This document shows, in pieces, positions 39,846 through 43,156 of a stretch of DNA of 64,000 bases (positions within the stretch are counted from its first letter, which is position 1; every line of letters begins with the position of its first letter). The translations under genes were made by a program, and so were the position numbers. Origin of the DNA: Candidatus Kapaibacterium sp. (GTDB taxonomy: Bacteria; Bacteroidota; Ignavibacteria; Kapaibacteriales; UBA2268). The stretch covers positions 1-64,000 of the forward strand of contig JAPLFL010000104.1 of assembly GCA_026390695.1 (NCBI GenBank). The letters run 5' to 3'. A model generated the notes under the pieces. That model had not been told where the DNA came from and searched no databases. It saw only the letters and a list, made by a program, of their open reading frames with translations.

Positions 39846-40044
39846 ACTAATTATCTGTTGTTATTTCTAAAAAATTCGAAAAAACAAAATTAGCTATTTC
39901 TTTATAATTTTAATGCCTATAACAATAAATGAATTAAAATTATTTACAAATCATATTGGATTCATCATTAGCTAACAAAATTGTAAAAGCTGTGTAATTT
40001 ACATTTGAGTTGTCACTAAATAATTTTTTATTTTTAATTTATAC

Positions 40045-40073
40045 TTGTTTTTTAAAAATAATCAATATATTTG
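40045..40073 (+). promoter_or_regulatory. Bacteroidota-type promoter for the CxxCH-barrel cluster
   Basis: TTG at 40045-40047 and TATATTTG at 40066-40073, 18 nt apart, fit the -33/-7 consensus. The predicted start near 40080 is about 30 nt before the ATG at 40110. Confidence 0.7.
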
Positions 40074-40109
40074 TACAAATTACAATTGTTTTAATAAACT
40101 TTGAATTAA

Positions 40110-41321
40110 ATGAAATTATTTATTTTAGTAATTATTATCTGTTTAAGTGCACAAGTAGCATTTTCATTCCCTCAATATACTTTGCTTTCCGGCAATAGGT
40201 GCATCAATTGCCATTTTAATGTACAGGGTGGAGCCTTGCGTAATGATCTGGGTTGGTATTCAGCAAGCGATGAAAGTTTAATTAAACCTGAGTGGATTGG
40301 CTTGGACAGCGTTTTTGGAGCATTTAAAGGAAATACACTATTCAATAAAAAAGTATTCTTAGGTTTCGATACAAGGTTTATTTACAATAATAATGCATAC
40401 CTTGTTAAATATATGGGTGATCAGGTTAAAATGTTCCCAATGGAACTAACTTTATACGGTGGTATAAAAGCTACGGACTGGCTCAGTGCCAATTTCGGAT
40501 TTAATTCCTCATATTTCTTACAGGGTTCGATGTATTCACTTAATTTGAAACAAAGCTGGTCTGCCTCTGTTGAAATGCAGCCTGATAAAGAATATCCTCA
40601 ACTTAGGATGGGATATTTCCAACCATCGACCGGAATCAGATATGAAGATCACACCAATTTAGTCAGACAATTCATTATACCAAGCAAAGGAATGATAAAT
40701 CGCAGACCTATGGTTCCGATTGATTATGCTGACTGGGGTGCAGAAATAAACTACTACTCTGAAAAATGGCTGCAATTGACTGCAGGTGTGCATCGTTCAA
40801 ATAATTTTGCTTTTCAGAACGGATCAATTCGTTTTAAACAAGGATCAAGTTTCAAGTATTTGGATATTATTGATTCTTCTAAAATGGCTTTTCTTGTTAA
40901 AGGAGTTATAAATGAAAAATTACCAGATTATAAGCTTAATGGCATGATAGGCGCTTCACTATTTTCAATTAGCGACTTCTGGATGGCCAATAGTTTTTAT
41001 GGAATTGGCTATGGCGGCATTGTTTCACTCTTAACAGAAGTTTGTACATCCTATAAAAAAGACGTTCAGAAAACAACAAATTATGCTCTGGATCTGAATA
41101 TTGAGGCAAGTGAAGGATTGGTCGGAATTATCGGTTATCAGAAAGGTAATACTCAAATATTCGGTAACGCTCCACTGACAGCAGATTATGCTCAATGGAT
41201 TTTTGGAGTTAAGGCATATCTTTTACCATATATTGAATTCAGGCCAGAATATCGGCTTATTAAACCGGGTGACATGGACTCCTTTAGTCATTATGTTCTT
41301 CAGTTTCATATTTTTTACTAA
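40110..41321 (+). CDS. Outer-membrane barrel protein with an N-terminal c-type haem motif
   Basis: 403 residues. Signal peptide to about residue 19 (AQVAFS). Just after it is a single CxxCH haem-attachment motif (C31, C34, H35 in GNRCINCHFNVQGGALRNDLGW). From about 65 to the C-terminus the protein is beta-rich with amphipathic strands (VFLGFDTRFIYNN, MELTLYGGIKATDWLSANFGF, LRMGYFQPSTGI) and ends in a terminal aromatic strand (YVLQFHIFY), as in porin-like barrels. A mono-haem plug or N-terminal tail on a barrel suggests electron transfer at or across the outer membrane. First gene of a four-gene cluster with a small membrane protein, a YceI protein and a Rieske protein. Specific redox partner unknown. 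Confidence 0.78.
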   Translation: MKLFILVIIICLSAQVAFSFPQYTLLSGNRCINCHFNVQGGALRNDLGWYSASDESLIKPEWIGLDSVFGAFKGNTLFNKKVFLGFDTRFIYNNNAYLVKYMGDQVKMFPMELTLYGGIKATDWLSANFGFNSSYFLQGSMYSLNLKQSWSASVEMQPDKEYPQLRMGYFQPSTGIRYEDHTNLVRQFIIPSKGMINRRPMVPIDYADWGAEINYYSEKWLQLTAGVHRSNNFAFQNGSIRFKQGSSFKYLDIIDSSKMAFLVKGVINEKLPDYKLNGMIGASLFSISDFWMANSFYGIGYGGIVSLLTEVCTSYKKDVQKTTNYALDLNIEASEGLVGIIGYQKGNTQIFGNAPLTADYAQWIFGVKAYLLPYIEFRPEYRLIKPGDMDSFSHYVLQFHIFY

Positions 41322-41401
41322 ACGAGTGTTTTCTATTAAACTAAATAATTTTTTAAAGCGTCGGTATTGTTAATTATTTTTAATTTTTTTGGGAGAGTTT
41401 A

Positions 41402-41659
41402 ATGGTTTGGAAATATTTGAGTATTGCATTTATTGTAATTGCTCTTAGTGTTGGTGGAGTGTGGGTAGCTCATGGAACAAATATCTATACTAAGGATAAA
41501 GTTCCTGTTATCACAAAAGATGAAATGTTCGGGACTGAATCAACCGAATGGAAGCCTGAATTTCATTTAGGTTTAGAGTTTGCAGGCCCAATCATGGCTG
41601 CATCATTAATTATAACTTTCTTTTCTTTTCGTAAATATAAAAAATCTTTGTTAAAATAA
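41402..41659 (+). CDS. Small two-helix membrane protein
   Basis: 85 residues with hydrophobic helices at about 5-24 (YLSIAFIVIALSVGGVWVAH) and about 58-76 (LEFAGPIMAASLIITFFSF), joined by a charged loop and ending in a basic tail (RKYKKSLLK). A clear GGGAGAG precedes the ATG. I do not recognise the family. It lies 13 bp upstream of the YceI gene and is surely in the same operon. It could be a membrane anchor or small subunit for the redox proteins on either side, which is inference from position only. Confidence 0.65.
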   Translation: MVWKYLSIAFIVIALSVGGVWVAHGTNIYTKDKVPVITKDEMFGTESTEWKPEFHLGLEFAGPIMAASLIITFFSFRKYKKSLLK

Positions 41660-41672
41660 TCAGGTGTTCAAA

Positions 41673-42341
41673 ATGTTTCTAAAAAATCTTACAATCACAA
41701 TTTCTATATTTCTAATTGCAACGGTATTTGTTTTAAATGCCGGTACAGGTCTTGGTAATGGTAAATCTGGAGGCAAGAAAATTGCCCTTAATAATAAAGT
41801 TGGATCAAATCAGATAAAATTCTTCAGCAAAGCTCCGGGTGAGGATATTGAGGGTACAGCAAATGGTATATCTGGTAATTTTACTCTCGATCCTTCTAAT
41901 CTTGAAGCAACCAACGGAAGTGTAACCGTTGAGGTTAAATCAATGGAGACTGGTAGCGGTTCACGCGATGCTCACATGTATTCCGAACCTTGGCTAAATG
42001 AAAAAGGGTTCCCAAAAATTACATTACAGATTAAGGGAATGAAAAACGTTAAAAACGTAAAATACGATGCATCTTCAGGTAAAGCCACAGCTAATGCCAC
42101 TGTATTTGGTGACTTTACTTTACATGGCATAACAACACACATGGAAGCTGAAATCACTCTAACTTATATAAATGAATCCGATAAAACTAAAGCACGCGCG
42201 CTCGGAGATTTTGTAATGGTCACAGTTAATTTTAATGTTCATTTATTAGAACATAAAATTTTGGGCAAAGCCGGAGTGGTCGGTGATAAAGTTGCTGAAG
42301 TTGTAAATTTACAGGCTTCATTTTTTGGAAATGTTCAATAA
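41673..42341 (+). CDS. YceI-family periplasmic lipid/isoprenoid-binding protein
   Basis: About 222 residues from the ATG at 41673; the GTG at 41664 overlaps the AGG that acts as ribosome-binding site. Signal peptide to about residue 23. The YceI lipocalin-like fold is clear: NQIKFFSKAPGEDIEGTANGISGNFTLDPSNLEATNGSVTVEV, then the MYSEPWLNEKGFPKITLQIKG segment and a FTLHGITTHMEAEITL strand pair. Family members bind polyisoprenoid or quinone-like lipids in the periplasm. Its place between a membrane protein and a Rieske protein suggests handling a quinone-like molecule for electron transfer, but this is inference. Confidence 0.88.
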   Translation: MFLKNLTITISIFLIATVFVLNAGTGLGNGKSGGKKIALNNKVGSNQIKFFSKAPGEDIEGTANGISGNFTLDPSNLEATNGSVTVEVKSMETGSGSRDAHMYSEPWLNEKGFPKITLQIKGMKNVKNVKYDASSGKATANATVFGDFTLHGITTHMEAEITLTYINESDKTKARALGDFVMVTVNFNVHLLEHKILGKAGVVGDKVAEVVNLQASFFGNVQ

Positions 42342-42371
42342 TTATTTTAAAATTAATTTTGGGGTCTAATT

Positions 42372-42854
42372 ATGACAGAATTAAAGACAATCGAAAGAAG
42401 AGATTTTATTAAGAAATCACTTGTAACAGCAGGAATATTTCTTTGTAGTTCATCACTTGCAACTCTTCTTGATTCATGTTCAAGCACTGCAACTGATCCG
42501 GGTTTATCAACAGTCACTTATGATGTGTCCACCAATGCGGATTTACAAGTAGATGGTGGAGTAGGTAAACCAATAATAACAAATTTTAACAGTGGTAAAC
42601 CTGTAATGATTCTTCGTATAACTTCAACAAGTTATATTGCTTTTTCTGCATCCTGTCCGCATGAAGGGTTTGTTTTAGATGCTCCCGATCCGGCAAATGG
42701 AATTCTAAATATTGTTTGCGGTAAACATTCATCTGAGTATAATGCGGCCACAGGTGCAGTGATTAAACAACCAACAAGTGGGACAACTAAGGCTTTAGTC
42801 AAATTTAATACAAGTTATGATTCAGCAACGCATCTTTTGACTATCTCAAAGTAG
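42372..42854 (+). CDS. Tat-exported Rieske [2Fe-2S] protein
   Basis: 160 residues. The N-terminus carries a twin-arginine motif (ERRDFIKKS, residues 8-16) and a hydrophobic stretch. LLDSC at 32-36 could be a lipidation site. The Rieske cluster ligands are C95-P-H97 and C116-G-K-H119, so the C-x-H...C-x-x-H pattern is complete. The protein is soluble-domain only, like arsenite-oxidase small subunits or cytochrome bc-type Rieske domains, but no oxidase or cytochrome b subunit is adjacent. Last gene of the CxxCH-barrel/YceI cluster; preceded by GGGG before the ATG. Likely a periplasmic electron carrier. Confidence 0.87.
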   Translation: MTELKTIERRDFIKKSLVTAGIFLCSSSLATLLDSCSSTATDPGLSTVTYDVSTNADLQVDGGVGKPIITNFNSGKPVMILRITSTSYIAFSASCPHEGFVLDAPDPANGILNIVCGKHSSEYNAATGAVIKQPTSGTTKALVKFNTSYDSATHLLTISK

Positions 42855-42895
42855 TATTAATTAAACTTAAATTACTTTTTGAAATAAATTAGAAA

Positions 42896-43156
42896 GACTG
42901 CCTCATAAGTTTCGTTTCAGTCATTTCTGAGAATGCAGGAATCCCCAAAAGTGCTACTGGATGGGGATTCCTGTATGTGAGACTGTGTGAAAACTTCAAT
43001 TTCTGTCATTCCTGCGAATGCAGGAATCCCCAAAAGTGCTACTGGATGGGGATTCCCGCATTCGCGGGAACGACATTCCATTGGAATTTCATAGTTTTCA
43101 CACAGTCTCATGCGAGAATGCAATTTTGTCAAATATTCTACATTTGAGGCAGCCTC
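42896..43156. mobile_element. Nested miniature element (outer about 130-bp palindromic element split by a 131-bp insert)
   Basis: The left end GACTGCCTCATAAGTT and the right end GAGGCAGCCTC are inverted relatives of the GGCTGTCTCA-type ends seen at 57350-57610 and 13431. Without the insert at 42979-43109 the outer element is 83 + 47 = 130 bp. It contains a REP-like palindrome with an arm reading GAATGCAGGAATCCCC. No coding capacity. Such short elements with inverted ends are probably mobilised by a transposase encoded elsewhere. Total span 261 bp, the same as at 57350-57610. Confidence 0.7.
42979..43109. mobile_element. 131-bp inserted element with 17-bp inverted ends
   Basis: The ends are GAGACTGTGTGAAAACT (42979-42995) and its exact complement (43093-43109). 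Inside is a REP-like palindrome at 43005-43074 with arms GTCATTCCTGCGAATGC... and ...CATTCGCGGGAACGAC. A second copy of the same length lies at 57397-57527. No open frame. Possible short target duplications (GCAT/ACAT) flank it but are imperfect. Confidence 0.75.

Follow-up and report, generated by a model that had tools for sequence, protein, structure and literature searches.

The window analysed here is the 64,000-nucleotide stretch from position 1 to 64,000 of contig JAPLFL010000104.1 of Candidatus Kapaibacterium sp. (GenBank assembly GCA_026390695.1). It contains four adjacent plus-strand genes that encode a barrel protein with a single CxxCH haem motif, a small two-helix membrane protein (SMP), a YceI-family protein, and a Rieske protein. 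We report that these genes form a conserved unit and propose, with moderate confidence, that their operon is an outer-membrane electron gate built on a fused cytochrome-porin resembling Cyc2, the fused cytochrome-porin of iron oxidisers (PMC8406198, PMC7029218). A preliminary description of the window had suggested a candidate envelope electron-transfer module, and for the most part this reading has found support: the genes are conserved as a unit, the barrel is cytochrome-porin-like, and paralogues of the barrel occur in multihaem clusters. SMP, which has no invariant residue of a redox type, goes with YceI rather than with the barrel, and a route from a quinone to the cell surface, as that description suggested, is no more than a possibility. 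As a unit, the gene set seems to be undescribed, literature on extracellular electron transfer in Kapabacteria and on YceI and Rieske proteins in Ignavibacteria having yielded nothing on it. The earlier remark that no named system has this composition thus seems to hold for the set itself, but takes no account of Cyc2, a cytochrome-porin that has a name, a single haem, and the same architecture.

A conserved four-gene unit

The four genes and the gaps between them (80, 13, and 30 bp) were confirmed by a check of the open reading frames (ORFs). On the plus strand, the barrel gene occupies 40110..41321 (403 aa), the SMP gene 41402..41659 (85 aa), the gene of the YceI-family, lipocalin-like periplasmic protein 41673..42341 (from an ATG at 41673, with an alternative GTG start possible at 41664), and the Rieske gene 42372..42854 (160 aa).

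The complete set, in the same order, is present in 14 of the 20 mapped loci of this operon type (the window, L022, L025, L029, L032, L033, L037, L038, L039, L041, L042, L043, L054, and L055). These loci are drawn from seven families of the window's order (f1, f3, f5, f7, f8, f9, and f10), and their proteins are 24–54% identical to those of the window. One or two members are missing from the other six: YceI from L023 and L052, the Rieske gene from L024 and L026; L027 has SMP only, and the SMP gene of L051 is located elsewhere in its genome. Order-wide, the barrel family is present in 102 of 119 genomes and SMP in 70, and 59 of 79 SMP genes lie on the same strand as a barrel gene, 11–318 bp downstream of it. 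As a control, the 17 other window ORFs of at least 85 aa, from about 33 to 50 kb, were all singletons with no counterpart in the same 40 loci. Chance neighbourhood is accordingly rejected, the set being conserved elsewhere and the surrounding ORFs not; the genes stay together in related genomes, the point on which the preliminary description had made its reading depend.

Named genomes carrying the barrel family belong to Kapabacteria, Ignavibacteria, and one Latescibacteria metagenome-assembled genome (MAG), as judged from a contig search with a 10-row barrel alignment; in a phylum-wide sample, the barrel is almost wholly confined to the window's class. The Latescibacteria locus (L086, OY282377.1) comprises one long and two truncated barrel copies with a repeated gene between them, followed by an SMP gene, an arrangement that probably arose by horizontal transfer and local duplication. 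A contig labelled Aquificales (L089, JALWWX010000028.1) has a barrel–YceI locus laid out nearly as in a Kapaibacterium MAG (L066) and is probably mis-binned or mislabelled.

The barrel protein

As the preliminary description had noted, a single haem motif, C31-I-N-C34-H35, follows the hydrophobic signal peptide directly. The protein consists of this signal peptide (residues ~1–18), the CINCH motif (residues 31–35, codons at 40200..40214, plus strand), and the barrel (~82–403). Invariant columns in 41 barrel sequences include C31, C34, H35, R44, G48, R89, D180, and Q398; M111, H181, and H400 are nearly invariant. A near-invariant motif, E179-D180-H181-T182 (codons at 40644..40655, plus strand; D180 in 100% and H181 in 90% of sequences), was placed by the alignment and an AlphaFold2 model in the long loop between strands 5 and 6, the position of the constriction loop L3 of porins. 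From this model, D180-H181-T182 could supply a haem ligand or bind a metal, a candidate site that would face the lumen. In the tree, a long branch leads to the window barrel (1.49 changes per site).

The AlphaFold2 model (predicted local distance difference test [pLDDT] 83.0, predicted template modelling score 0.82) has 16 long strands and two short loop hairpins, 16 being the count read from the strand list without the hairpins. When the model was compared with solved structures, OprP (Z 25.0) and OprO (Z 24.9) came first, with a root-mean-square deviation of 2.6 over 286 residues, and other porins reached at most Z 22.6; no Mtr-type barrel was among the listed matches, which is no evidence against kinship. 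Sequence searches of the barrel against solved structures gave no match, and those against Pfam and NCBIfam gave no family and no cytochrome model, Pfam matches being scattered and below cut-off.

With a probe for the published motif of Cyc2, six proteins bearing its signature were retrieved from plasmids (three with AxPxFARQT exactly, three with a close variant). The N-termini of these proteins match the barrel profile in exact register over A-x-P-x-[FY]-x3-T-G-x2-CxxCH, with HMMER E-values down to 2.6e-6 in the six-sequence search and an hhalign probability of 80% over 34 columns, signal peptide included; the barrel portions are not alignable by sequence. A c-type cytochrome gene lies near each of the six genes, as near many paralogues of the barrel. 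Cyc2 in the strict sense is rejected, both the AR[QK][TY] and the PxL signatures failing. Judged by its sequence, the barrel is a relative of Cyc2 in architecture and not a Cyc2, and its description as a cytochrome-porin-like protein with a predicted haem is supported.

Three loci (L133:6725-7399, L131:6620-7306, and L134) encode, beside a barrel gene, secreted proteins of ~230 aa that combine a temptin-like domain with a tail for type IX sorting. These proteins share the stretch CxNCHxxxQGGGxRNxFG with the N-terminus of the barrel.

Paralogues in multihaem clusters

Among the genomic evidence, it is the surroundings of its paralogues that speak most strongly for a role of the barrel in electron transfer. 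Thirteen barrels, two of them from the window's own genome, form one clade (support 100/100) that is nested among window-family barrels of the present operon type. Most loci of this clade have a 5- to 6-haem lipoprotein gene nearby, and the one such protein tested contains an MtrC/MtrF domain above the Pfam cut-off; Rieske proteins, small monohaem cytochromes, a 13-haem cytochrome, and a cytochrome b561–NapC fusion are often encoded there too. These are clusters of the extracellular-electron-transfer type. In a second clade (100/100), a cytochrome c gene precedes the barrel gene (PF00034 in the one tested), and planctomycete-type (PSCyt1) cytochromes recur near barrels. A multihaem gene beside the barrel, as in porin-cytochrome complexes of the Mtr/Pcc type, was found only in the 13-barrel clade and is absent from the window operon.

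Both copies from the own genome lie in one locus (L021; contig C15, 15000–33000), a candidate extracellular electron transfer locus in which they form two further barrel–Rieske pairs, alternating with three collagen-linked lipoprotein cytochromes of 5 to 6 haems each.

The Rieske protein

The intact ligands and twin-arginine signal seen in the preliminary description were both verified: the ligands are C95-P-H97 and C116-G-K-H119 (PF00355, E 5.9e-9, 36.2 bits against a cut-off of 20.3), and the twin-arginine translocation (Tat) motif is RRDFIKKS. A lipobox, LLDSC36, had escaped that description. Because the lipobox cysteine, like each of the four ligands, shows no variation among the aligned members (28 of 28), the protein is most probably a lipoprotein exported by Tat, a route also known for the arsenite oxidase subunit AioB and for the Rieske protein of proteobacterial bc1 complexes. 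A role as a bc-complex subunit is rejected: the protein scores 14.5 bits against the 97.4-bit cut-off of the bc1-type model TIGR01416, the disulfide cysteines are absent, and the genome has a separate Rieske gene beside cytochrome b. Three orphan relatives of the operon Rieske gene lie elsewhere in this genome, with neither a barrel gene nor a YceI gene beside them (L164:5381-5863, L165:5341-5721, and L166:5057-5482).

SMP and YceI

The YceI assignment stood firm (PF04264, E 2.8e-19, 70.4 bits against a cut-off of 23.7), and the protein has an N-terminal signal peptide. SMP belongs to no Pfam family, matches being scattered and below cut-off. Its invariant residues are W21, G57, and L58, with D40, F43, and G44 nearly so, none of which is a typical redox ligand; a role as electron carrier is rejected for want of a conserved ligand. 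Outside the window's order (families f12, f17, and f18), SMP adjoins YceI without a barrel in six of nine loci (L167, L168, L169, L173, L174, and L175), and extra SMP copies inside the order (L098, L099, and L101) likewise stand beside YceI without a barrel. Since such pairs occur, SMP is a partner of YceI rather than of the barrel. The operon looks modular, the barrel and the Rieske protein making up an electron path to which SMP and YceI are attached as a lipid- or quinone-handling pair.

Transcription signals and redox background

The preliminary description had placed the four genes behind one promoter, a suggestion to which two sites of the form TAnnTTTG, resembling the Bacteroidota-type -7 promoter element, at 40000 and 40066, lend slight weight; a sigma-70 scan upstream of the barrel gene found nothing notable. 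The second site, TATATTTG (40066..40073, plus strand), lies 36 bp 5' of the barrel start codon. Two sites in the 264-bp upstream region compare with 0.25 expected from base shuffles, a count that by itself would be no evidence of promoter function. The sigma-70 and terminator scans were not decisive. Just 3' of the Rieske gene, at 42895–43056, is a dispersed hairpin repeat with 107 matches in the same genome, whose RNA folds at -29.2 kcal/mol (z -5.95) and which may terminate the operon transcript.

The same genome encodes two haem-copper oxidase subunits (COX1), two cytochrome c assembly proteins, and a separate Rieske–cytochrome b–multihaem complex. The last of these, on contig C41 (L163:5387-11499), has unusual surroundings for a bc-type complex: genes for a Rieske protein, cytochrome b, and an 11-haem cytochrome come one after another, and behind them are those of a ferredoxin-like subunit and an NrfD-like protein and the beginning of a molybdopterin-type oxidoreductase gene (gene names assigned by reading the sequences).

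Proposed mechanism and alternative explanations

In the electron gate that we propose, the barrel would be an outer-membrane protein whose short N-terminal plug holds a single c-type haem where its 16-stranded pore opens to the periplasm. This haem would exchange electrons with a small redox partner that either stays outside the cell or enters the pore and, on the inner side, with the Rieske lipoprotein. The latter, exported in folded form by Tat and held in the envelope by its lipid anchor, could provide the link to periplasmic cytochromes, a bc-type complex, and oxidases. SMP, a small protein of the inner membrane, and its partner YceI would be a general lipid- or quinone-handling pair that has become part of this operon in the order. 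We infer that a haem is attached and that the barrel and the Rieske protein exchange electrons, and likewise the direction of this exchange and the outside partner; the gene set, its conservation, the motifs, the predicted barrel, the lipoprotein signal, and the redox neighbours of the paralogues are what the sequences show. We lean slightly towards inward flow, with oxidation of an outside donor, because the operon has no quinol dehydrogenase gene and the genome has two haem-copper oxidases.

Several observations weigh against this proposal. The model confidence of the barrel is low over residues 21–50 (pLDDT ~50–70), so that the placement of the haem is not given by the model. The N-terminal module of the barrel is also found in the temptin-like secreted proteins, and its CxxCH might therefore serve another use. 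The window's Rieske protein lacks both of the disulfide cysteines kept as a pair by 14 of 28 members (positions 100 and 118 are F and K), which makes its redox potential uncertain and possibly different from the family norm. Finally, the SMP–YceI pair is found elsewhere without a barrel, so that part of the operon need not serve electron transfer at all.

The alternative closest to the proposed gate is the same gate run outward, in which respiratory electrons would pass to a soluble shuttle or mineral, as a single-haem version of the paralogues' multihaem clusters. This is a sub-case of the gate, and its probability overlaps with that of the gate; we regard it as possible but rather doubtful. 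The paralogue clusters themselves look outward-directed, and the clade whose neighbours include MtrC-like, 13-haem, and cytochrome b561/NapC genes branches from within the window-family barrels of this operon type; relatives in Ignavibacteria have porin-cytochrome complexes and live on anodes (PMC7399161). However, this operon type has no quinol dehydrogenase or multihaem gene, and a single haem alone cannot span the membrane. A bolder version of the gate, to which we attach little weight, would make the lipid-anchored Rieske protein, in place of a cytochrome or copper protein, the direct redox partner of the single-haem cytochrome-porin in an order-wide respiratory device. YceI would carry a quinone-like lipid back and forth between the inner membrane and the outer one, which would feed the device or drain it.

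Two further explanations would take the operon out of respiration. By analogy with LcoA–BcnA of Burkholderia, YceI might bring reduced isoprenoid quinone to the outer membrane, where it would quench lipid radicals, while the Rieske protein and the barrel would keep the carrier reduced or remove oxidants. YceI lipocalins do bind octaprenyl compounds or ubiquinone-8, and the YceI lipocalin BcnA together with the cytochrome b561 LcoA protects against lipid peroxyl radicals (PMC9113575); SMP and YceI, moreover, are a pair of their own in other families. We nevertheless hold lipid protection to be unlikely, as SMP has no conserved haem-b or quinone ligands and the paralogous barrels have MtrC-like and 13-haem cytochromes as neighbours but no YceI, which fits respiration better than radical quenching. 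Less likely still is an ordinary substrate porin whose CxxCH is a disulfide or metal site, in an operon that would import or sense a small molecule while the Rieske protein serves an unrelated redox enzyme. Consistent with such a porin, OprP and OprO are anion porins, the barrel matches no cytochrome model of Pfam or NCBIfam, and the CxxCH-GGGxRNxxG stretch resembles that of temptin-like proteins sorted by the type IX secretion system (PF24784 in L133). Yet CxxCH, a covalent haem motif, is strictly invariant in 41 diverged barrels, the genome has cytochrome c assembly genes, and the N-terminus is in register with that of Cyc2, whose haem has been shown experimentally (PMC8406198).

Significance

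Single-haem cytochrome-porins have so far been known mainly as Cyc2, a marker of iron oxidation. The barrel described here would add a second family of distinct sequence, found almost throughout one order of Bacteroidota relatives and without a Pfam or NCBIfam model. With this family, the question of how a lone haem in a narrow pore could pass electrons across the outer membrane can be put to a direct test. The operon also bears on the role of the widespread YceI proteins in redox settings, and the nested multihaem paralogues on how a multihaem conduit could arise from a simple gate.

Comparison with known systems

Like Cyc2, the window barrel has one CxxCH after the signal peptide, fused to a barrel, and at 403 aa it exceeds the minimum of 365 aa; like Cyc2, for which Keffer et al. 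reported 16 strands and the homologues OprO and OprP (PMC8406198), it is predicted to be 16-stranded and OprP/OprO-like, two short loop hairpins being left uncounted. Unlike Cyc2, it has SFPQYTLLS (family consensus AxPQYSLLT) in place of AXPXFAR[Q/K][T/Y] upstream of CxxCH. Four residues after CxxCH, where Cyc2 has PXL, the window has CHFNVQGGALRN and the family CHxNxQGGGxRN, with QGGGxRNxLGWY as the stretch in its place. The operon partners SMP, YceI, and Rieske protein are not described for Cyc2.

With MtrCAB, MtoAB, and OmbB–OmaB–OmcB of Geobacter, the operon would share barrel-based electron transfer across the outer membrane, and the paralogue clusters share an MtrC/MtrF-like cytochrome with these systems. 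The Mtr barrel, however, consists of 26 strands, and a decahaem cytochrome runs through it, whereas the window operon has a smaller barrel and one haem motif.

The best Foldseek matches of the Rieske protein are periplasmic Rieske proteins that share its Rieske fold and Cys2His2 ligands, namely the bc/b6f Rieske, that of Chlorobaculum (8hn2), and AioB; unlike bc/b6f Rieske and AioB, it is a predicted lipoprotein and has no cytochrome b or molybdenum partner in its operon. As in LcoA–BcnA, YceI is encoded directly after a membrane partner, but the partner here is not a cytochrome b561: it is an 85-aa two-helix protein with no conserved histidine or haem ligands.

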